Shown: in pieces, positions 17,739-43,767 of the stretch
How positions within the stretch are numbered: position 1 is the first letter of the stretch
Layout: each line of letters starts with the position of its first letter
Origin: an uncultured Rubripirellula sp.
Lineage (GTDB): Bacteria > Planctomycetota > Planctomycetia > Pirellulales > Pirellulaceae
Assembly: GCA_938075415.1 (NCBI GenBank)
Contig: CALJHC010000040.1
Location: 1 to 64,000, forward strand
Length of the DNA stretch: 64,000 nt
Direction of reading: 5' to 3'
Notes under the pieces: generated by a model
Database searches by the model: none
Told to the model about the DNA's origin: nothing
The model's input: only the letters and a program-made list of their open reading frames with translations
Made by a program: the position numbers and the translations under genes

Positions 17739-18809
17739 ATGATCAAGAAACGATTTTCGGTGCATTCTGTTCTCTTCAGCATTCTCGCTGCTGTCTTGGC
17801 ATTTACCATCAGTTTTTCTGCCAAGGCTGACGAAACCGCAGCACCCCAAGGCAAGTCTGCCGACATGTCAAAGCCAGTGCAGGTTTACATTCTGATGGGT
17901 CAATCCAATATGCTGAATTTCGGCAAAGTTAAAGGCGGTGACGGTTCGCTTGAAACCGCCATCAAGGAAAAAAAACTCTACACGTACTTAATGGATGATG
18001 ACGGTAATTGGATCGTCCGTGGTGACGTTCGCAATGTTCGTGTGATGGGCAGTGGTACGGGAGGAATGCGACAGTTCAACAACGAATGGATGACGATCAG
18101 CGGGAACGTTGGTGTCGAAATCGGAATTGGGCACGCGGTCGGTGATGCGACGGATGCACCTGTGATGATCCTCAAAAGCGCTATTGGAAATCGCGCCTTG
18201 GGATGGGATTTGTTGCCACCCGGCAGTGAAGGTTTTGAGTTCACGGATTCCAAAGGGAAAACTTGGGTGCATCCGGGTTACAAAGGATCCCCCGAGCGAT
18301 GGGAAAAAGGAACCGAGCCTAAGAAGATCGGTTGGTATGCCGGGATGCAATATGATGGCGACGTCACGCGTGCGAAGAATGTTTTGAGCGAACTAGACAA
18401 GTACTATCCCGGTGCGAGTGGTTATGAAGTTGCAGGATTCTTCTGGTGGCAGGGTGATCGGGATAGCCGCAGCGAGGCATTGTCCAGTCGCTACGAAAAG
18501 AATCTTGTTCATCTCATCAAACAACTGCGCAAGGAATTCGATGCTCCCAATGCGAAATTTGTTTGTGCTTCGCTAGGGCAGTCTGAAAAGGGAGCCACTG
18601 ATGGTGGTGGGAAGATTCTCGATGCCGTATTGGCTGTTGACGGTGCTTCGGGCAAGTACCCTGAGTTCAAAGGAAATGTTGCTGGTGTCTACACTCATCC
18701 GCTTTCCAAGGGCAGTAGTTCAGGCAGCCATTATGGTGGGAATGCCGAGACCTACATGAATGTTGGTGAAGCAATGGGTCAGGCCATGGCCAAGCTGATG
18801 AAGGATTAA
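17739..18809 (+). CDS. Secreted SASA-domain (DUF303) carbohydrate acetylesterase
   Basis: A 356-residue exported SGNH-type hydrolase of the sialate O-acetylesterase-like (SASA, DUF303) family. A signal peptide covers residues 1-30 (ends FSAKADE). The block I motif is VYILMGQSNM with nucleophile Ser56. A FFWWQGDRDS block lies mid-protein, and a C-terminal GVYTHPL...GSHYGGNAETY region supplies the likely catalytic His. Such enzymes remove O-acetyl groups from sugars or polysaccharides. The gene opens a run of hydrolase and sulfatase genes reaching 27.8 kb, which suggests a role in deacetylating a complex glycan. The exact sugar is not readable from sequence. Confidence 0.88.
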   Translation: MIKKRFSVHSVLFSILAAVLAFTISFSAKADETAAPQGKSADMSKPVQVYILMGQSNMLNFGKVKGGDGSLETAIKEKKLYTYLMDDDGNWIVRGDVRNVRVMGSGTGGMRQFNNEWMTISGNVGVEIGIGHAVGDATDAPVMILKSAIGNRALGWDLLPPGSEGFEFTDSKGKTWVHPGYKGSPERWEKGTEPKKIGWYAGMQYDGDVTRAKNVLSELDKYYPGASGYEVAGFFWWQGDRDSRSEALSSRYEKNLVHLIKQLRKEFDAPNAKFVCASLGQSEKGATDGGGKILDAVLAVDGASGKYPEFKGNVAGVYTHPLSKGSSSGSHYGGNAETYMNVGEAMGQAMAKLMKD

Positions 18810-19339
18810 TCATCCAGATGATGGTGAGCGATGCATGCTTGACTCCATTAAGGGGAAGGTGGCTAGACCATTGTGCCGCTTAAGCGTCGTCCCCTTAAGC
18901 GACGTCCCCTTAAGCGATGTCCCGTTACGCGACGCCCCTTAAGCGATGTCCTGATTGCTGATTGAAGCAGTTCTGCGAAGGAAACGTTCGCGACAGTGAC
19001 CAATCAAGCTCATGGACATCCATCATTGAGCCGTTCCATATGCGAATTCGCAGCGTGACGGCGGTGGTTGAGGACCTCTGTGACATTTCGCCATGGCAAT
19101 CTGAGGGAGAGCACGCGAACGTTGGGATGATTTTTTTGGGGAAATTGCAAGCTCACAAAAACTGCAAAGCCGGGTTTTTCGTCAAACCTCTATCAGGATT
19201 AATTACTCATTCCTTGAAAGATTCGAATGCCCACGCGAGGGAAAACATTTTTTAAGTTATCACTCCGGGTGAAGTCCCTTCGATATGCAACCACGAGAAA
19301 ATCGTGTTCCGCCTCAAAGCACTTATGAGAAACTGTTCA
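18810..19339. other. Intergenic, 530 bp, with tandem repeat
   Basis: It contains the 15-bp repeat array listed separately. The plus frame at 18962-19255 lacks protein-like features and is not called. The sulfatase frame extends back to a GTG at 19304, considered under that gene. Confidence 0.45.
18879..18952. repeat. Five-copy 15-bp tandem repeat
   Basis: The unit is CTTAAGCGACGTCCC. Copies begin at 18879, 18894, 18909, 18924 and 18938. The fourth is the most diverged (GTTACGCGACGCCC, 14 bp) and the others differ at one to three positions. Each intact copy contains the palindrome CTTAAG. It lies 70 bp after the acetylesterase stop. Confidence 0.9.
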
Positions 19340-20779
19340 ATGAAGTCGAATCATTCACCACTGACCGCCATTGTGTTTGTGCTCGCGGTCTTGGCTCTTG
19401 TTAGCTCGGTCAGGGCGGATCAAGCAGGAGTGTCAGTCGATAAGAAAAAGCCCAATGTTGTCCTGATCTACATCGATGACTTGGGCTACGGTGATATTGG
19501 TGCCTACGGGTGTAAAGACATCCCCACACCGAATATTGATCAGTTGGCTACCGAGGGTGTGCGTTGCACGGCGTCTTACATCACGAATCCACCGTGCTGT
19601 CCCAGTCGCTGCAGTTTGGTCATGGGGCAGTATGGACAACGCTTTGGCAAATACGGGATGTCCCGAGGTTTACCAATCCCCAGGGATCGTCCAACGATTG
19701 CACAGTTCCTGCAAAATGCGGGATACCTCACCGGACAGATTGGCAAATGGGACATCGGAACGAAAAGTCAGGGACCTTTTTACACCGGATTCCAAGAGGT
19801 TGCCGCCAATCCTCCGAGAAAAAAATATACCAAGTCGGAGATTGCGGAATTGCCCAAAAAGGTTGGAGACGCAATCAAACGGAAGGGCGGGAAATCCAAA
19901 TATTTTTGTGTCAACGAATCAGGTGAAACCATGTGGTTGACTGACTACGACGGCGACATGATGACCAGATTTATTGACAATCATCAAGACGAGCCATTTT
20001 TTCTTTACTGGTCACCCGAAGCGGTCCATTCACCGAGCATTGAGTCACCCGAGTATTTGATGCGGAGGACGACCGCCGAAGGTAACAGACGCAAGCTTGC
20101 CGGTGCGATTGTTTCAGTCGATGACCAAGTTGGCAAACTGATCAAGGCGTTAGAAAAGCACAATCTCAGAGAAAACACACTTGTTATTTTCTCCAGCGAT
20201 AATGGTGCCAACGGGGGTGAAGGAGGTTCATCAAGTCCTTACACCGGCGGCAAAGGATCGGGGACGCAAAAAGAAGGCTGGGTTCGAGTACCGACCATCT
20301 TTTCAATGCCAGGAACGTTACCCGTTGGTAAACAGTTTGACGGCTTGATCGCCAACTTCGATTTCTACTCGACCGTTGCTGCACTGGTCGGTGCGAAGGC
20401 ACCAGATCACTGCGATGGTGTGGATTTATTTCCTTACTTGCGAGGTGACGTGGCCGGTGATCCACATCAGTATTTATTTTGGCTCAACAATGAGCCCGGT
20501 GACGCCGTCCGCCGACACTTAATCGCGGTCCGCTGGAAAGATTGGCGGTTGTATAAAAAGTACCAGAAGGACCCGTGGCAACTTTTTAACCTCGAGTCTG
20601 ATCCGCGTGAAGAGAAGAACGTTGCCGCGCGGCATCCGCAAATTGTGCGACAAATGGCCGCTCAGCACGCAGCCTGGGAAAAAACGCTTGAGCCCCTGAG
20701 GGAAATCCCTGAAATCAATAAACAACTGCCGGTCATTCCCGACGGTTTTGGCTGGACAACTTGCCTCGGTTTTCTTTGA
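19340..20779 (+). CDS. Secreted sulfatase, CCPSR type
   Basis: A 479-residue sulfatase of the alkaline-phosphatase fold. The ATG at 19340 opens a signal peptide (MKSNHSPLTAIVFVLAVLAL); a GTG at 19304 and an ATG at 19325 are alternatives. The metal-binding start is VVLIYIDDLGYGD. The formylglycine motif is CCPSR with the modified Cys at residue 86, followed by CSLVMGQ where the usual TG is MG. A FSSDNGANGG segment gives further metal ligands. It should cleave sulfate esters from a sugar or polysaccharide after Cys-to-formylglycine conversion by an enzyme not encoded here. It sits between an acetylesterase and an alpha/beta hydrolase on the same strand, and a second sulfatase lies 5.5 kb downstream. 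Confidence 0.93.
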   Translation: MKSNHSPLTAIVFVLAVLALVSSVRADQAGVSVDKKKPNVVLIYIDDLGYGDIGAYGCKDIPTPNIDQLATEGVRCTASYITNPPCCPSRCSLVMGQYGQRFGKYGMSRGLPIPRDRPTIAQFLQNAGYLTGQIGKWDIGTKSQGPFYTGFQEVAANPPRKKYTKSEIAELPKKVGDAIKRKGGKSKYFCVNESGETMWLTDYDGDMMTRFIDNHQDEPFFLYWSPEAVHSPSIESPEYLMRRTTAEGNRRKLAGAIVSVDDQVGKLIKALEKHNLRENTLVIFSSDNGANGGEGGSSSPYTGGKGSGTQKEGWVRVPTIFSMPGTLPVGKQFDGLIANFDFYSTVAALVGAKAPDHCDGVDLFPYLRGDVAGDPHQYLFWLNNEPGDAVRRHLIAVRWKDWRLYKKYQKDPWQLFNLESDPREEKNVAARHPQIVRQMAAQHAAWEKTLEPLREIPEINKQLPVIPDGFGWTTCLGFL

Positions 20780-20898
20780 GATCGATAGAGATGACCAAGA
20801 AAGTTGCTGAGTTCGTATCGCGTGATGGGATCGGAGATGGATTTCTGAACGCAAATTGATTGCACAGTGTCAAAATCACCAACCTGCCCGAGATCAAG

Positions 20899-22725
20899 AT
20901 GCAGCTTTTTAGAATCTTCTTACTCACTAATCTACTGAACCTGTCGCTGTGTGGAAACGAAACGTTCCAACCTTACAAGACGGTCGGTGATGTACCCCGA
21001 GACGCAGTCGAGCTATGGAGAGGCTACGACGCTAGGGCCGAGCCACTTGATGTACGCATCATCAAGCAGTGGAGTGAGGATGGAATCGTTACTCGTTACG
21101 TGACCTTCAGGGTCGGAACGTTCAAGGGAGCGGAGTCCCGAATTGCGGCTTATTATTCTTACCCGGATAATGGCGCAAAGAATGCAGGCTTTGTCTGGAG
21201 TCATGGTGGTGGGCAGCGAGCAGAGCGGAATCGAGGACGGTATTTTGCCACGCAGGGCTACGCCACGGTTGACATCAATTGGCTCGGTCGTCCGATGGAA
21301 AGCGACATCGAAATCAACACCGACTGGGGAAAAGTAGATCCCACGCAAGGTCCCCGTTTTTACTCCAAAGCCTTGCGTTCAGGATGGAAACGGAATTTAC
21401 AGCCGGATGAGTTTTCGATTGACCCGGTTGCCAGCCCTCGAAATGCTAACTGGTTCCTTTTGGCAGTCGCTGCACGTCGCGCCATCACCTTCCTCGAGCA
21501 GCAACCCGAAGTCAACGCATCACAACTTGGTTTTTCCGGTTTCTCCATGGGGGGAATGATCACCGCTTTGACGGCGACGGATGAAAGACTCAAAGCGGTG
21601 GCTCCGTTCGTTGGAGGCACCGGTTTCAAGCATCTCAACTTTCCTGGGGATGTACGTGGTAGTGGCAGTGGGGCGCATTTTAAAGACACGGATCTTTACA
21701 GCAAAACGATTGATGCGAGCGCCTATTGGCCATTTGTCAAATGCCCGGTCATGTTCATCAGTTCATCGAACGACTTTCATTCTGCGTTCGATCGCATTTA
21801 TCAATCAATGGCTCTGTTGAAGCACCCCAACTGGCGTGTCAGCACCAATATGCATCAGAACCACGGCCCTGGGCCGGAGCAGTGGGTACTGTTGAACCAA
21901 TGGTTTGACCAATATCTGAGGGGATTGAATCCTTCCATTCCGCCCACACCACCTTCAACATTTTCTGTCAGCGACGGCCTCGCAACCTTTACGGTCACAC
22001 CCAAGAACCAAGACAGATTGTTGGACACGGAAGTCTATTTCAGCTATGACCCCAATAGTCGGACGCGTTTCTGGAACCACGCCAGTACTCAAAAAACTGG
22101 CGACACGTGGTCGGTTCAAATACCAGTGCATGAAAATCTTCCTCTGTACGTGTTTTCTCTGTGTCGTTACCGACTCAATCAACCTGTTCAACTCCAGCGT
22201 GAGCAAACAGCAACGTTTGCCCTGAACTCGTTGGAGCATGCCTTGATTCCTGAGATCGTGGATCGAAAGCAACTTTCACAACTGCCCAAAACACGTGATG
22301 TATTTGAGGACTTTCAGTTCGGAACCCGGGATTGGTCCAGTCGGGACCAACGCAGCATCAAGACCTATAAATTCCAGACTCCTGACCTTGATCGGTCGGA
22401 TAGTAATCAGCTCTCAATCCGGCTCAACCCCCGGGGGAAAAGACTCGCACTGCGTTTGAACGCGGGAAGCAAATTTTTAAGTCAGGAAAATAATCTTGGT
22501 GACTTTTCGTACGTGATAAATTTGCTGAGCAACGAACCGCAGGAAATTCTGGTTAACCGTCATGATTTCAAAAGCACTGAGGGTAAAACACTTGAATGGT
22601 CCAAGGTTGCAACCTTTGAGGTCACGCTTGTGGACCGCGATACAAACGAGAAGGTCATGCTGACTTCCAAAGCAGGCCAGGGGTTCATTGAGTCAATCAA
22701 ACTGAAGAAGATCGACAACCAATGA
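20899..22725 (+). CDS. Secreted alpha/beta hydrolase (acetyl-esterase/dienelactone-hydrolase-like)
   Basis: A 608-residue protein. The ATG at 20899 is chosen over the TTG at 20860 because it starts a short signal peptide (MQLFRIFLLTNLLNLSLCG). The oxyanion-side strand is GFVWSHGGGQ, the nucleophile elbow is GFSMGG with Ser216, and later acid and base candidates lie in SSNDFH and NHGPGPEQW. The C-terminal 200 residues form a beta-rich module, perhaps carbohydrate-binding (ends with a GQGFIESIKLKK strand). It follows the sulfatase after 119 bp on the same strand, so joint expression is plausible. The likely role is de-esterification of a glycan or peptide side chain; the substrate is unknown. 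Confidence 0.8.
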   Translation: MQLFRIFLLTNLLNLSLCGNETFQPYKTVGDVPRDAVELWRGYDARAEPLDVRIIKQWSEDGIVTRYVTFRVGTFKGAESRIAAYYSYPDNGAKNAGFVWSHGGGQRAERNRGRYFATQGYATVDINWLGRPMESDIEINTDWGKVDPTQGPRFYSKALRSGWKRNLQPDEFSIDPVASPRNANWFLLAVAARRAITFLEQQPEVNASQLGFSGFSMGGMITALTATDERLKAVAPFVGGTGFKHLNFPGDVRGSGSGAHFKDTDLYSKTIDASAYWPFVKCPVMFISSSNDFHSAFDRIYQSMALLKHPNWRVSTNMHQNHGPGPEQWVLLNQWFDQYLRGLNPSIPPTPPSTFSVSDGLATFTVTPKNQDRLLDTEVYFSYDPNSRTRFWNHASTQKTGDTWSVQIPVHENLPLYVFSLCRYRLNQPVQLQREQTATFALNSLEHALIPEIVDRKQLSQLPKTRDVFEDFQFGTRDWSSRDQRSIKTYKFQTPDLDRSDSNQLSIRLNPRGKRLALRLNAGSKFLSQENNLGDFSYVINLLSNEPQEILVNRHDFKSTEGKTLEWSKVATFEVTLVDRDTNEKVMLTSKAGQGFIESIKLKKIDNQ

Positions 22726-24787: not shown

Positions 24788-26185
24788 ATGCATCTCAGCG
24801 ATCTTATTTCCCCGCTAGCTCTTGGCTTGCTTTGTGTGTCTGCACCTTGGGCCGCGGGCCAGAGTGCCAATCAGAAATCGCGACCGTTTGCAGACGCAGG
24901 CAAATTTAAAATGTTGTACGACGTCAGGCAGCGCCCGCAGTCGGTTTTTCTGCATGATCGGTTGTATGTCGTTTACAACGGGGACGCCAAGCCGAGCGCA
25001 AACGGCAAGGGCAGCGCGTACCCAATGATGATTAGCTACGAGCCAGCTAGCCGGACTTTTTCTGAGCCAGTTCGACTCGGAGCGAATCGCAGTAGTGATC
25101 ATCACTTCAGCCCAATTATTTGGGCAGATGAAGACGACCACCTGCATGTGCTACACGGCTGCCACAGGACTCCTGGCAAGCATTTGATTTCGATGCATCC
25201 TGCCGTGAGGGGGCGAGCGTCCATTCATTGGCAAGAAGCGCCGCAAATCGCACCGCAGTTGTCCTACCCCACTGTTTTTCAAGTCGTTGGTGGTCGCCAG
25301 TTGATCTATTACCGCACGGGCGGTCATACAAGCTCGTGGACCTATCGGATCAGCGTTGACAATGGAAAAACCTGGGTCGGTCCCGAGAATGATGTGACGG
25401 ATCTTGATTCGAAGGGGCGTTTAGATTGGTCCTCCTATCAAACCAAACTGCCGAGTGCGGATGGAGAGCACTTGCATGTTGTTTACACCGACTATGACGA
25501 CAACAAGAATTGGCCGGACCCTAAACGGTTCTTCAATCCGCGTTATGACAGAGAGGTTTCCAATGAATGGAAGTACAACCTTTCGTACCTGAAGATCAAT
25601 CTGATCACTCAGGAGGTCTGCAATATGGATGGACGAAACATGGAAACGCCCATTGATATCGGCAACTCGAAGTCGCATTGTGAAATTTGGGACACCGAGG
25701 GACGCGGTGCAGGAGTTCCCCCTGCAGTTGTTCTTGACGAAAACGGCGATCCCGCCTTCCTGCATGTTTTGTCAGAGGAATCGTTAACATCTCATCGTTA
25801 CTATTATGTTCGTCGCGTTGCGGGTGACTGGAAACAGTCACCGATTACGCATTCTAACCATCAGTGGAACAGCGGTTATCTGTTGAGAGAGACCGATGGC
25901 TCGCTGCACGCCTACCTGATCACCGGTGCGGGTTATCTTGAGGGTGGCTACATGGATCGGCACGGCGGCGGGCGCATCGAAGAGTGGGTCTCGACTGACG
26001 AAGGAAATCGTTGGTCGAAGCGGCGTGATATTTCCCCCACGAACGAGCAGTATTCTGGTTGGCGATTTAATAATGTCCAACCAGTTGTGCGACCGGATGG
26101 AAGCGTTGTTAATGAGATGCTAATCTTCTATGGTTGGGCTGCCGAGCAAAATCCAGAAGCGACAGCTTTCCTGTTTCACGAATGA
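24788..26185 (+). CDS. Secreted BNR-repeat propeller protein, PL24/PL25-like candidate polysaccharide lyase
   Basis: A 465-residue exported beta-propeller of the BNR_4 type. The ATG at 24788 opens a signal peptide (MHLSDLISPLALGLLCV...AAGQS); the longer frame from 24596 is rejected. Asp-box-like turns occur (SVDNGKTW, STDEGNRW). His106 in SSDHHFSP, His126 in LHGCHR, Tyr160 in LSYPTVFQ and Arg176 in YYRTGG follow the order His-20-His, Tyr-16-Arg that I recall for the catalytic residues of PL24/PL25 ulvan lyases, which share this fold. A sulfatase gene follows after 61 bp. I infer a lyase acting on a sulfated uronic-acid polysaccharide; a non-catalytic sugar-binding propeller is the alternative. 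Confidence 0.72.
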   Translation: MHLSDLISPLALGLLCVSAPWAAGQSANQKSRPFADAGKFKMLYDVRQRPQSVFLHDRLYVVYNGDAKPSANGKGSAYPMMISYEPASRTFSEPVRLGANRSSDHHFSPIIWADEDDHLHVLHGCHRTPGKHLISMHPAVRGRASIHWQEAPQIAPQLSYPTVFQVVGGRQLIYYRTGGHTSSWTYRISVDNGKTWVGPENDVTDLDSKGRLDWSSYQTKLPSADGEHLHVVYTDYDDNKNWPDPKRFFNPRYDREVSNEWKYNLSYLKINLITQEVCNMDGRNMETPIDIGNSKSHCEIWDTEGRGAGVPPAVVLDENGDPAFLHVLSEESLTSHRYYYVRRVAGDWKQSPITHSNHQWNSGYLLRETDGSLHAYLITGAGYLEGGYMDRHGGGRIEEWVSTDEGNRWSKRRDISPTNEQYSGWRFNNVQPVVRPDGSVVNEMLIFYGWAAEQNPEATAFLFHE

Positions 26186-26246
26186 GATCGTTGCGAATTG
26201 CAATTAGTTTTTCTGCCCATCGAAGTTTACATTGAAGAACAAGAAC

Positions 26247-27809
26247 ATGAATATCAGAGCCTTTCCATTTCTGTTTTCGTTTTTGGGGGGCCTGCTGGTT
26301 TTTGGGAACCTGGCAGACAATGCCAATTCGCAGTCACGCCCCAACATCGTGGTGATCATGGTGGATGATATGGGTTGGTCTGATATCGGTTGCTACGGAT
26401 CAGAAATTGAGACTCCCAATATTGATCGCCTCGCCTCAGAAGGACTGCTATTCACTCAGTTTTACAATAACGCCAAGTGCACCACGACGCGGGCATCACT
26501 GCTCACCGGTCTTTACCCTCGCAATGGCGGTCGTGGTCAGGATGAATTGATCACCAGAAATATGCTCACCCTTGGCGAGGCGATGCGACACGCTGGTTAC
26601 GCAACCGGCATGTCAGGAAAATGGCACAACGGCAAGAAAGTGGGGACTCGTCCATTTGAACGCGGATTTGATGAGGCATACGGATTGTGGGACGGTTGTT
26701 GCAATTTTTTTAATCCCAAGATCCCTGATCCGGACTTCAAGGGAGGGAGAGTCCGTCCCTTCGGTCATAATGACGAAATGCTCGAGTTGGAAGATTTTCC
26801 CGATGACTATTACACAACCGACGCCTTCACCGATCACGCAATCAAAACCATCACGGCGCATTCTTCAGCAGGCAAGCCGTTTCTCCATTACCTCTCGTAC
26901 ACGGCACCTCATTATCCCCTGCATGCCAAGCCGGCCGATATTGCAAAGTACAGAGGCAGGTACGCGGCCGGCTGGGATGTTTTGCGGCAAGAGCGTTTGG
27001 CAAAGCAAGTCGAGCTCGGTCTGGTTGATGAAAACTGGGTCGTTGCTGACCGTGATGACCTTGCAAGCGAATGGCAACAGGCCAAGGGTGTCAACGAGCA
27101 ATGGCAACAGCTTCGCATGGAGGTCTATGCGGCCATGATCGACTCGGTCGATCAGAACATTGGACGCTTGCTTGATTCCCTTGATGCCATTGGGGCTGCC
27201 GAAAACACATTGGTTCTCTTCCTTTCCGATAACGGAGGGTGCGCCGAGACGCCGGGTGGAAATAATCCGCAGCATGTTCCTGGCCCAAAGGAGTTTTACA
27301 GCCATGTCGGTCCCGGCTGGGCGACGGCATCTAATACACCATGGCGTCGCTACAAGCAATATTGTCACGAAGGCGGCATCTCGACCCCGCTTTTGGCCCG
27401 TTGGCCGGCGTGTATTCAATCGGGTTCACGTTCCGATCAAGTAGGACACATCATTGACTTCCTGCCCACCTTCCTTGAGATGGCCCAACTTGATTACCCA
27501 GATCAGCATCCGGCTTTTGGCGAGAAAACCATACCGCTTGATGGAAAAACGCTTGTGCCGATTTTTAAGGGTGAGCAGCGAAAGTCCAGTGACAACCTCT
27601 ACTGGCATTGGTCGACCAACAAAGCCGTTCGACAGGGGGATTGGAAACTAGCTTGGGACAAGCATGAGAAATCTTGGGAGCTTTATGATCTTGGTGCCGA
27701 CCGCACCGAAGCTCACAACCTCGCCTCGGAACACCCCGACCTTGTCGACTCACTGGCCCGCAAATGGGATCTGTGGGCTAAAAAGACTGATATCAAAGGA
27801 AAGAAGTAG
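26247..27809 (+). CDS. Secreted sulfatase, CTTTR type
   Basis: A 520-residue sulfatase. The ATG at 26247 opens a signal peptide (MNIRAFPFLFSFLGGLLVFG); the TTG at 26232 is less likely. Metal-binding start is VVIMVDDMGWSDIG. The formylglycine site is CTTTRASLLTG with Cys78, in which the usual Pro or Ala at the third position is Thr, a variant common in planctomycete arylsulfatases. FLSDNGGCAETPGG supplies further ligands. It lies 61 bp after the BNR propeller gene, so the two probably form an operon: the lyase would cut the chain and the sulfatase remove sulfate from products. The substrate is inferred only from this pairing. Confidence 0.93.
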   Translation: MNIRAFPFLFSFLGGLLVFGNLADNANSQSRPNIVVIMVDDMGWSDIGCYGSEIETPNIDRLASEGLLFTQFYNNAKCTTTRASLLTGLYPRNGGRGQDELITRNMLTLGEAMRHAGYATGMSGKWHNGKKVGTRPFERGFDEAYGLWDGCCNFFNPKIPDPDFKGGRVRPFGHNDEMLELEDFPDDYYTTDAFTDHAIKTITAHSSAGKPFLHYLSYTAPHYPLHAKPADIAKYRGRYAAGWDVLRQERLAKQVELGLVDENWVVADRDDLASEWQQAKGVNEQWQQLRMEVYAAMIDSVDQNIGRLLDSLDAIGAAENTLVLFLSDNGGCAETPGGNNPQHVPGPKEFYSHVGPGWATASNTPWRRYKQYCHEGGISTPLLARWPACIQSGSRSDQVGHIIDFLPTFLEMAQLDYPDQHPAFGEKTIPLDGKTLVPIFKGEQRKSSDNLYWHWSTNKAVRQGDWKLAWDKHEKSWELYDLGADRTEAHNLASEHPDLVDSLARKWDLWAKKTDIKGKK

Positions 27810-40422: not shown

Positions 40423-43400
40423 CTAGTTGTTGGCGAAAGCTTCTTTCGCCAACCATTGGGAGATTACATCATAAACATCGTTTGCGTCGGGGAGGTGATC
40501 CGCAGGGAAAAGCACATGCTTCTTGTTTTCGCTTCCCAGGTCCGAGAACATTGTTTTTTGGGACGTCTCGAGTGGGAAAACTTGGTCGGCAGTACCGTTG
40601 ATCATAAGTGTGGGTTGTTTGACGTGGGGCGTGAACTGATATTGTTGGATTTCAGGCCTCAGTTTGTGCCAAGGCACGTAACCTCCCGCAAGCAGGATGC
40701 CTGCTTTGAGGCGTGTTTCCGTGCTCAAGCATATTGGCGCCCGAATTGCGCCGTTGCTTAAACCGAAGTAAATGAGTCTTTCAGGATTTACTTCCTCTCG
40801 GGTCAACAGGTAATCAACAGCGCGTGAGACATCCATGCTTACTTTGATGTAATCGTTTCGGGCCTGAATCGGTGCCGTTTCAAATTGCTGCGTGAGTGTA
40901 CTGCCTCCCCATCTCTCATAGGTACCTTTGTAAATGGGAAAGCAAATCATCCTTCCATTTTCAACCAGCGGAATGACGTATCTCATCAACTTGAGTTTTT
41001 CCGCGGGGAAGGGGCCTCCGTTCTCCCAGGCGCTTACCCCAGGCACAAAGATGAGTGTTTCAAAAGGTCCGTTATTTCCCTTGGGAATGAACAGGTGCAG
41101 GCTGAATCTCTCTTCGTCGTATGCCGCGTTGATCTCCACCGACTCGACACGATAGTTGTTTCTGATTTCACCCTGATTGGGTGTCTCGATAAACCTTGGT
41201 GCTAGGGGGATATTGGGATCATAAAGGTATTGTGATCGCAACACATCAAACGGTTTTCGTTCGCCGTCGAAAACGAGGGGGGAGGGGCGATTGACGACTG
41301 CGATGGATTCTTGACTGGGGGTCTTTTCAATGGGATGGACCGAGCAGCGAAAGCCATTCACGGGTGACCGATCCCAAGGCGAGCGGACTTTGTTTTCAAC
41401 GAACGAGTATTCTTCCGACTTCCAGTCGCCACCCAAAATGTATCGGTCACCGTTTTCATCTTCATTCCAGCACCATTCCGAGACATTACCCGCCATGTCT
41501 CTTGCATCAAATCTTCCGATTCCAAGTGATTCGCCGCACCGCATGGGTGCTCTGCTGGCAAAGTTGCCTTGGGACGCGTCGACACCCGGTTGGTCGGTGC
41601 TGGCAGCCCACTTCCAGTGATGCATCGTGGGGAGTGCTTTGGATCGGTACGCTGCATAAGCCTTGGCTTCGTACCAGCTAACACCTGACACGGGATAGTT
41701 GCCTCGGTTGAGCGGGTATGTCCCCCCTTTCCACGTCGCCGGCCCTGCATGTCCGGTCTGATCCCGAAACCTTTCCATCGCCTCGGACCACTTCATCTCT
41801 TTGCCATCTTTTCGGAAGTCCAAGCTGCTCCAGAAATCTGAGTTTTCGTAAGCTCCCGCATCAACAAATTCTTGGTAATCAGCGTTGGAGACTTCGAAAC
41901 GGTCAATCCAAAACTCTTGGAGAATCTTGGTTCCTTTACCCGCCTGATCTTGGTTTCCATACACCCAAACCATGTTTTCTTTCTGTTCGTGTTCGGACAC
42001 AAGATATTTGTTAGCAAGTGTGTCAAACGCATCAGGATTCTTAAGTTGGAACTCTCTTGTGACATAGCCCTGGTTTTCAAATCGAACACGAACAACACCG
42101 CTGGGGAAATCGATGCCACTTAACGGGGTTTTGCCAAGGTTCGCCCATTTTTTGGATTCACTGTTTCCGTCGCATATGCTGACACTGGTTCCCTGTGGCA
42201 GTTCAGTGAAGCTGGCGGTTAGCAAAAACCGATCTGAGATTTCCCTAAACTCGGGATCATCTCCTAAAAGGGGCTTCAAGGATTGGGTCATGTTGAAAGC
42301 TGCAATCGGATGTTGATCATCAATGTATTGTTGCAAGCTTGGTAGCAGAGCACGTCTGGCCTCTTGAGCCTCCCGAATATTGTTCAGCTTGGTGTCGGCG
42401 TCGGCCAGCTCCGCTTCACGCTCCTTGCGTTTTGTATTTTCGCTGACCGCATATCTGATGGTTGTTGTTGTCATGGCCAACATCACCACCGTCAGTAGAG
42501 AGATGGCCATGAAGACCGGATGACGCTTTGAGAAAAGCAACGTTTTCCTTGCCAACGAGGGAGGGCAAGCGATCGTCGGAAGATTTTGAATGTGATATTC
42601 AATATCCCTCGAAAAGTCTTGTACCGTCGAGTAGCGACCTTCTGGTTTCTTTTCCAACGCCATAGCGACGATCCAACGCAGGTCCTCATCTAATGGATAG
42701 ATGATTGCCGGCACCGTGGTTTTCCTCTGACGTGCAATTACCTCTCTGTTTTCAGACTGACGGAACGATTCCCATATTGGCGGTGGGATCAAGTCGCAGA
42801 TAAGTTCCAGTTTTCGCCCAAGCGATTCTGCATCGCGGAATTCTGCCGCAAAGGGGATTTGACCGACAAGCAGTTCATGCAGAACAACTCCCAACGAGTA
42901 GACGTCGCTGCGAGTGTCAAGCATCCCATGCTTTGCCAGTGCTTGCTCCGGACTCATGTATTCAAGCGTTCCCACAAGCTGATTAGCTTGTGTGATGGGT
43001 TCCGCATCCCTTCCGGCACGACCAGGGATTTTTGCGATACCGAAATCAATGATCTTGGCAACGGCTTGGTGGTCGTTTTCCACCACTAAAATGTTAGACG
43101 GCTTCAGATCACGATGGATGATTCCCTTGAAATGCGCGTGCTGAATTCCGTTGCAGGCTTGACGAAAGAGCTGGAGTCGTTCGTCGATTGATAATCGTTG
43201 ATCATTGCAATACTTGGTAATCGGAATCCCATCAATCCATTCCATTGCGACGTAGGGTCGACCGCATTTGGCGGTTCCGGCTGCAAAGATCGATGCAATA
43301 TTGGGATGATTCAGGGAACCAAGTATCTGTTTCTCAGCTTCGAAGCGACTTGATGCCTGAGGAAGATCATGGTTGGCCGAAAGCAACTTGATCGCAACTT

Positions 43401-43767
43401 TGCGCCGGATTGGACGAACCTGCTCTGCAAGGTAAACCGCTCCCATCCCCCCTTCACCAATTTTCCGAAGAACCTTGAACCCGTTGATCTGGATCTCGCG
43501 TTCTGACTCAGGAAAGATCTGCGATTCAAGTTGATTTTCATTAATCGGGGGCCCCAGCAACTTCGAATCATCTTTGTCAGCTTGAAGTAGCATCCTCAAG
43601 CGATTTCGCATAACGGAGTCATCGCCGCACACCTGATCGAGGTAAACCTCTTGAAGCGGTTGCGATTCTATTTTTGCCGCAACACGAAAAATTTGTTCCT
43701 CAGAAAAATCTGGCATGCTTCCAAACCAATTTGCGATATTGAGTCGTTTTTCAAACGCCGATTTCAT
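40423..43767 (-). CDS. Ser/Thr kinase fused to SUMF1-like and alpha/beta hydrolase domains
   Basis: A 1114-residue membrane protein. The cytoplasmic kinase has GEGGMG (104-109), VAIK Lys127, HRDLKPSN (218-225), DFG (241-243) and SPEQ, so it looks active. One membrane segment lies at about 416-437. Outside it are a short coiled coil, a PEGA-like beta segment (525-575) and a formylglycine-generating-enzyme-like domain (598-810; NVSEWCW, GFRCSV). That domain lacks the paired copper-binding cysteines of true FGE, so it is probably a binding module. A C-terminal alpha/beta hydrolase follows: GLSNG Ser1004, Asp1061 in GTADQ and His1091. It starts 61 bp after the ECF sigma gene. The three-part fusion is unusual. 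Confidence 0.92.
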   Translation of the reverse strand: MKSAFEKRLNIANWFGSMPDFSEEQIFRVAAKIESQPLQEVYLDQVCGDDSVMRNRLRMLLQADKDDSKLLGPPINENQLESQIFPESEREIQINGFKVLRKIGEGGMGAVYLAEQVRPIRRKVAIKLLSANHDLPQASSRFEAEKQILGSLNHPNIASIFAAGTAKCGRPYVAMEWIDGIPITKYCNDQRLSIDERLQLFRQACNGIQHAHFKGIIHRDLKPSNILVVENDHQAVAKIIDFGIAKIPGRAGRDAEPITQANQLVGTLEYMSPEQALAKHGMLDTRSDVYSLGVVLHELLVGQIPFAAEFRDAESLGRKLELICDLIPPPIWESFRQSENREVIARQRKTTVPAIIYPLDEDLRWIVAMALEKKPEGRYSTVQDFSRDIEYHIQNLPTIACPPSLARKTLLFSKRHPVFMAISLLTVVMLAMTTTTIRYAVSENTKRKEREAELADADTKLNNIREAQEARRALLPSLQQYIDDQHPIAAFNMTQSLKPLLGDDPEFREISDRFLLTASFTELPQGTSVSICDGNSESKKWANLGKTPLSGIDFPSGVVRVRFENQGYVTREFQLKNPDAFDTLANKYLVSEHEQKENMVWVYGNQDQAGKGTKILQEFWIDRFEVSNADYQEFVDAGAYENSDFWSSLDFRKDGKEMKWSEAMERFRDQTGHAGPATWKGGTYPLNRGNYPVSGVSWYEAKAYAAYRSKALPTMHHWKWAASTDQPGVDASQGNFASRAPMRCGESLGIGRFDARDMAGNVSEWCWNEDENGDRYILGGDWKSEEYSFVENKVRSPWDRSPVNGFRCSVHPIEKTPSQESIAVVNRPSPLVFDGERKPFDVLRSQYLYDPNIPLAPRFIETPNQGEIRNNYRVESVEINAAYDEERFSLHLFIPKGNNGPFETLIFVPGVSAWENGGPFPAEKLKLMRYVIPLVENGRMICFPIYKGTYERWGGSTLTQQFETAPIQARNDYIKVSMDVSRAVDYLLTREEVNPERLIYFGLSNGAIRAPICLSTETRLKAGILLAGGYVPWHKLRPEIQQYQFTPHVKQPTLMINGTADQVFPLETSQKTMFSDLGSENKKHVLFPADHLPDANDVYDVISQWLAKEAFANN

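Follow-up and report, generated by a model that had tools for sequence, protein, structure and literature searches.

Does a beta-propeller protein encoded beside a sulfatase in a planctomycete genome, and carrying the His/His/Tyr/Arg layout of the PL24 and PL25 ulvan lyases, belong to either family, and is ulvan what it cleaves? The question is raised by an open reading frame at 24788..26185 (+) of the window, by which we mean the whole 64,000-nucleotide stretch of DNA from an uncultured Rubripirellula sp. that was analyzed. A preliminary description, made from the sequence alone, had singled out this frame for the spacing of four residues. When the codons were checked, the frame and the positions of His106 (25103..25105, +), His126 (25163..25165, +), Tyr160 (25265..25267, +) and Arg176 (25313..25315, +) were as described, and the distances of 20 between the two histidines and 16 between the tyrosine and the arginine are correct in the 465-aa protein. 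On the basis of Pfam, phmmer and Foldseek, we consider the protein a putative secreted BNR_4 propeller lyase related to PL25. Its match to Pfam BNR_4 (PF15892, E-value of 3.2e-15) scores 56.7 bits against a gathering cut-off of 27.3, and its N terminus is hydrophobic and reads, by eye, as a signal peptide, from which we conclude that it is probably exported.

No family of solved structures other than PL25 matches the protein significantly in sequence: a phmmer search of the PDB sequences up to an E-value of 10 returned only the PL25 chains 5UAM/5UAS (4e-10 and 3.1e-9), and a profile search gave PL25 at 2.3e-9. An AlphaFold2 model built from a 26-sequence alignment (mean pLDDT 80.5, pTM 0.83) leads to the same family, since Foldseek against the PDB placed four chains of 5UAM/5UAS first (E-values from 3.4e-19 to 8e-19, TM scores of 0.68-0.73). 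The earlier call of a BNR propeller is thus borne out by both the Pfam score and these top fold matches, with the caveat that the number of blades is taken from the match to the PL25 fold and not from counting. The next matches are a putative neuraminidase (4IRT) and GH145/PL42 chains (about 1e-14 to 1e-12). Lower in the list come Uly1 and the PL24 enzyme LOR_107 (about 1e-11 to 5e-9), as well as sialidases and lectins, the latter from 1.8e-9. An hhalign comparison with four PL25-type sequences, taken from named plasmids of Catenovulum, Alteromonas 76-1, Persicobacter and Halocatena, gave a probability of 99.5%, with 343 aligned columns and 21% identity, and placed the active residues alike. 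One Alteromonas reference of each family was itself verified against a solved structure (PL24 against 6BYP, E-value of 0; PL25 against 5UAM, E-value of 9e-252), while the other PL25-type rows were assigned by similarity.

The protein is one of a group of close relatives. In a single scan of contigs from GTDB genomes, 28 loci had orthologues of 57-70% identity, 15 in Verrucomicrobiota and 13 in Planctomycetota, including records titled Rubripirellula and Rhodopirellula, and the clade is found here only in these two phyla. Isolate codes suggest that the hosts come mostly from seawater. Within the genus, a close orthologue is present in 10 of 22 genomes, the window genome included, and one further genome (G008) has a 29% relative; across 294 genomes of the phylum, considering up to five candidates per genome, a good match is found in the window genome and one other (G260) and a marginal one in three. 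We found no description of this clade among the literature matches listed. The alignment comprises 26 sequences, namely the window protein and 25 of the 28 loci (58-70% identical to it), and leaves out L032, L035 and L036, which are cut by contig ends. The orthologue frame at L031:3891-6254 encodes 788 aa, extending about 350 aa further at its N terminus than the lyase, which may represent an extra domain or an over-long frame.

All 26 aligned sequences share His106, His126, Tyr160, Arg176, His180 (25325..25327, +) and Tyr217 (25436..25438, +). The four residues of the original layout, whose loss in homologues would have spoken against it, are therefore kept in each of the 25 aligned orthologues. 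With residue roles as given in PMC13193363 and PMC8377490, the catalytic residues of PL25, that is, His123, Tyr188 and the charge-neutralizing Arg204 (PMC13193363), have His106, Tyr160 and Arg176 as their counterparts by phmmer, MAFFT and hhalign. By phmmer and MAFFT, His126 falls on the second histidine of PL25 (His143) and His180 on its zinc ligand His208, while MAFFT places Tyr217 on the substrate-binding Tyr246, in a stretch where the phmmer alignment shifts by a few residues relative to that placement. Such invariance bears on whether the propeller is an enzyme at all. Photorhabdus propeller lectins do appear further down the Foldseek list, but a non-catalytic, lectin-like sugar-binding propeller is very improbable in view of the invariant catalytic set and of lectin fold matches that are far weaker, at best 1.8e-9 against 3.4e-19.

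While the residues are conserved, their spacing is a poor guide to family. Shuffling the protein 5000 times yields a loose form of the pattern (H-x19/20-H...Y-x15-R) in 1103 cases (22%), and 7 of 119 neighboring reading frames of 300-800 aa from outside the clade hold it too; we rejected spacing alone as weak evidence. Of 29 BNR_4 proteins from planctomycetes that fall outside the clade, 14 have the loose pattern as well. According to PMC8377490, the PL42 enzyme FoRham1, an L-rhamnose-alpha-1,4-glucuronate lyase, has His85/His105/Tyr150/Arg166, a quartet with the same spacing as in the clade, and GH145 members retain both histidines and the arginine. Because the layout recurs in PL42, largely in GH145 and in about half of those BNR_4 proteins, it marks a superfamily rather than PL24/PL25, and it should not serve on its own to call ulvan degradation. 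Of the PL24/PL25 assignment first proposed, the homology to PL25 stands on phmmer, profile, fold and hhalign comparisons; the diagnostic value of the layout does not.

Nor do the residues prove lyase activity, since the GH145 member BT3686 hydrolyzes its substrate, on the other face of the propeller according to PMC8377490, in a family that keeps the two histidines and the arginine. The protein might instead be a glycoside hydrolase, or an enzyme of another kind, built on the scaffold of a lyase, in which the lyase residues are a relic or serve binding; this would fit the precedent, the ranking of GH145/PL42 structures as next fold matches and the absence of GH88/105, which takes away the usual partner of a lyase. 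We nevertheless regard this GH145-like enzyme as improbable, because PL25 and not GH145 is nearest by sequence and fold, and because the conserved set includes Tyr160 and Tyr217. PL42/GH145 chains share the general fold with the clade; they gave no sequence match in the PDB, either by phmmer up to an E-value of 10 or by profile to an E-value of 1.

PL25 (PLSV_3936, 5UAM/5UAS; SH2L_Ulv3) thus offers the closest comparison, and it resembles the clade in its propeller, its His/His/Tyr/Arg set at spacings of 20 and 16, the equivalents of Tyr246 and His208 and its frequent position beside a sulfatase. The two differ at several levels. Identity is low, from 17% (Foldseek) to 21% (hhalign), and the C-terminal half of the clade proteins has motifs of its own, HQWNS and GYMDRHGGG, unlike PL25. 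The PL25 zinc site is not preserved: His208 is kept as His180, but His264, Cys266 and His278 are replaced, in the MAFFT alignment, by Asp235, Asp237 and Ser258. Asp237 and the adjoining Asp238 are invariant in the clade, and two planctomycete proteins, L011 and L073, likewise have an aspartate at the Cys266 position; the His278 position is a glutamate in a PL25-like Alteromonas fusion protein and is thus not fixed among PL25-like proteins. As for the substrate-binding residues of PL25 (Asn122, Lys125 and Tyr246), only the last is matched, by Tyr217, the others being His105, found in 26 of 26 sequences, and Ser108, found in 25 with one alanine. The Asn122 position is a serine in two PL25-type sequences as well. 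On the Alteromonas plasmid pAlt76, the protein encoded at L041:11524-14082 and annotated as heparin lyase I family has an N-terminal PL25-like propeller with the His/His/Tyr/Arg set.

The phylogeny agrees with a position beside PL25. The tree has 51 rows, for which 16 of the remaining 29 BNR_4 loci (L043-L071) were chosen by hand so as to cover their spread. Several rows have long branches, and L074 was left out of both the tree and the pattern list. The 26 clade sequences lie on one side of a single branch (99/98), the five PL25 rows form their own clade (100/99), which L011 and L073 join (97/88), and the very long-branched L050 joins the lyase clade (97/88), a join we consider unsafe. A further branch (98/92) separates the clade, PL25, L011/L073 and L050 as a whole from PL24 and the remaining BNR_4 rows. 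Homology to PL25, an invariant active-site set and separation as a clade are observed, and on the tree the clade appears as a neighbor of PL25 outside the PL25 clade. This is in keeping with the original suggestion of a diverged or new lyase family, and we regard the clade as a candidate for a new family, or deep subfamily, of putative lyases with PL25 as its relative. Membership in PL24, in contrast, was rejected, since hhalign against two Alteromonas 76-1 PL24 proteins gave a probability of 0.2% (E-value of 0.26). LOR_107/Uly1 of PL24 share the propeller, a histidine pair (His146/His167) and Tyr243/Arg259 at 16 residues, but their histidines are 21 apart rather than 20, and they fall on the other side of the tree and lower in the fold ranking. 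In PMC8377490, moreover, PL24 Tyr243 is equated with FoRham1 Tyr202, not Tyr150.

The genomic surroundings speak to substrate. Directly downstream of the lyase gene lies a sulfatase at 26247..27809 (+; Pfam Sulfatase, E-value of 1.3e-56), and the 61 bases previously counted between the lyase stop codon and the sulfatase ATG at 26247 were confirmed, with an in-frame TTG at 26232. Its nearest solved relatives are the arylsulfatases 7ALL and 1HDH. A homologue with 81% identity occurs near the orthologue in L038 and one with 38% in L019, and the idea that the sulfatase-lyase pair of the window is a conserved unit was rejected because a close homologue is found in L038 only. Upstream, a second sulfatase (19304..20779, +), which among solved structures matches carrageenan sulfatases best and whose membership in the cluster is uncertain, is followed by an alpha/beta hydrolase (DLH-like by domain search; 20860..22725, +) that sits between it and the lyase and has no PDB match at an E-value of 1e-5. 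A SASA-type carbohydrate esterase, also assigned by domain search (17739..18809, +), is a possible accessory enzyme, and a SASA gene likewise follows the orthologue in L019. In the window genome, a 5.96-Mb assembly that is 87% complete, sulfatase matches number at least 151; against this sulfatase-rich background, the window also encodes, at 40423-43767 (-), a 1114-aa fusion of a Ser/Thr kinase and a formylglycine-generating-enzyme-like (FGE-sulfatase) domain.

Sulfatases in the other loci were found with a profile built from those loci and counted as adjoining when within 1.5 kb. A sulfatase adjoins the lyase gene in 9 of the 28 loci in addition to the window, that is, in 8 of 13 Planctomycetota and 1 of 15 Verrucomicrobiota, counting L038, which has a full sulfatase reading frame 1.45 kb away and a sulfatase-like fragment in between. 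The density of sulfatases would lead one to expect such a neighbor for about 8% of genes, a figure that comes from the window genome only and is set against loci that are mutually related. The remaining 14 verrucomicrobial loci have no sulfatase in the sequence examined, several of these contigs being short. Sulfatase linkage of the lyase clade is thus recurrent in Planctomycetota.

Seven of the 28 loci (L015, L025-L028, L034 and L039), from both phyla, have one and the same sulfatase type beside the lyase; it lies upstream in three of them and downstream in the other four, with 59-85% identity among the pairs listed. The nearest matches of the L025 copy, the member tested, are 6HHM (E-value of 3.9e-57) and iduronate-2-sulfatase; 6HHM is the ulvan sulfatase P18_S1_7, which acts on 2-sulfo-xylose according to PMC9096561 and PMC11980604. 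We asked how this S1_7-like type is distributed over the 22 related genomes of the genus, using matches at an E-value of 1e-100 or better and up to 58 candidates per genome, and the outcome hinges on the identity threshold: at 60% or more, it is found in 7 of 10 lyase genomes versus 0 of 12 others (Fisher p 0.0007), and at 57% or more in 7 of 10 versus 3 of 12 (p 0.08). In one of these genomes (G009), lyase and sulfatase are on different contigs. In the window genome, candidates at 1e-100 or better have identities of 42-44% to this type, and none of them is a close copy.

Three of the S1_7-like sulfatases lie within very long open frames (L034:4555-7923, L015:1998-4952 and L039:4598-7798). Those of L034 and L015 contain two Pfam sulfatase stretches each, apparently tandem sulfatases in one polypeptide, and the N-terminal sulfatase part in L034 is nearest to the k-carrageenan sulfatase S1_16. 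A separate family of 420-480 aa, with 61-84% identity, adjoins the lyase or sulfatase genes at L034:9359-10792, L039:9453-10769, L025:11264-12535 and L026:11348-12772; searches of Pfam, NCBIfam and the PDB gave nothing for its L034 copy, nor did NCBIfam for its L025 copy.

Would the carriers be able to use ulvan? We searched for PF07470, which we take to cover GH88 and GH105, and for PF17389, presumably the GH78 catalytic domain. Neither has a match at an E-value of 1e-3 in the window genome, and an ulvan pathway in this host was rejected accordingly, although one genome at 87% completeness is no proof. The GH78 core is over cut-off in none of the 10 genomes of the genus with an orthologue (G020 has one weak match), and PF07470 is limited there to a fragment over cut-off in G005 and weak matches in G014 and G017; in the other 12 genomes, PF17389 is over cut-off in five and PF07470 in one. 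PL25-type genes keep different company, the clade having no visible GH88 or GH78 partner. The order on pAlt76 of Alteromonas 76-1 is sulfatase-PL25-GH88, with the GH88 gene adjacent; on a Catenovulum plasmid, a sulfatase and a GH78 gene follow the PL25-type gene within about 4 kb downstream, the latter at 3.7 kb; and on an archaeal plasmid of Halocatena marina (L081), a PL25-like gene with the quartet has short sulfatase-like genes and an alpha-L-rhamnosidase a few kb away. The shortage of GH78 and GH88 in orthologue-bearing genomes speaks against complete use of ulvan by the carriers, and with GH88/105 mostly missing, the usual enzyme for the unsaturated uronyl product is mostly absent.

A divergent PL25 ulvan lyase in function, cleaving the Rha3S-GlcA/IdoA bonds of green-algal ulvan, is unlikely for these reasons. 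PL25 is indeed the nearest characterized family, and the seven loci with a sulfatase type close to an ulvan sulfatase point the same way, but against this stand the altered substrate and zinc residues, the genomes that have no GH78 core over cut-off and no complete GH88 when PL25-type plasmids have them, and the window's own sulfatase, which is arylsulfatase-like and not S1_7-like by best match. Ulvan as the substrate, as the preliminary description suggested, is accordingly not supported.

Some loci contain what may be an oxidative module. A gene of the 3-keto-disaccharide-hydrolase type is present in 10 of the 28 loci by clustering, with Pfam checked on two copies. It lies upstream of the lyase in L025-L029 and downstream in L012, L014, L018 and L020, the two sets being 41-45% identical, and L033 has a further copy at the contig edge with 62-66% identity to the planctomycete set. 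A relative of the PVC-type heme-binding domain accompanies this gene in eight of nine loci, in both phyla, and some loci also have c-type cytochrome and azurin-like genes. The window has no such hydrolase-type gene adjacent to the lyase, and the link is only suggestive because the domain is abundant, with 37 matches in the window genome. One may conceive of the clade as a new family of polysaccharide lyases in Planctomycetota and Verrucomicrobiota, one that dispenses with the usual GH88/105 unsaturated-uronyl hydrolases and passes its products to sulfatases and the neighboring oxidative module. We rate this scenario as rather unlikely; if true, the 3-keto-disaccharide hydrolase, c-type cytochrome, PVC heme-binding and azurin-like proteins would constitute a different route for uronic-acid glycans.

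The reading we prefer, with moderate confidence, is that of an exported BNR_4 beta-propeller lyase in a separate, PL25-related clade, whose substrate is probably a sulfated uronic-acid glycan other than ulvan. We infer lyase activity, substrate and mechanism from the relatives and neighbors described above. By analogy with PL25 and PL42, Arg176 would neutralize the carboxylate of the uronic acid bound at subsite +1; Tyr160 and/or His106 would take the C5 proton and protonate the leaving O4, with His126 and Tyr217 in a supporting role, and the product would be a 4,5-unsaturated uronyl one. The neighboring sulfatase may open up the sulfated, uronic-acid-containing glycan for the lyase.

To our knowledge, it is mostly open which glycans so many planctomycete sulfatases serve. 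The sulfatase-linked lyase clade offers an enzyme that can be expressed, and its substrate would tell the purpose of some of the sulfatases in this genome.
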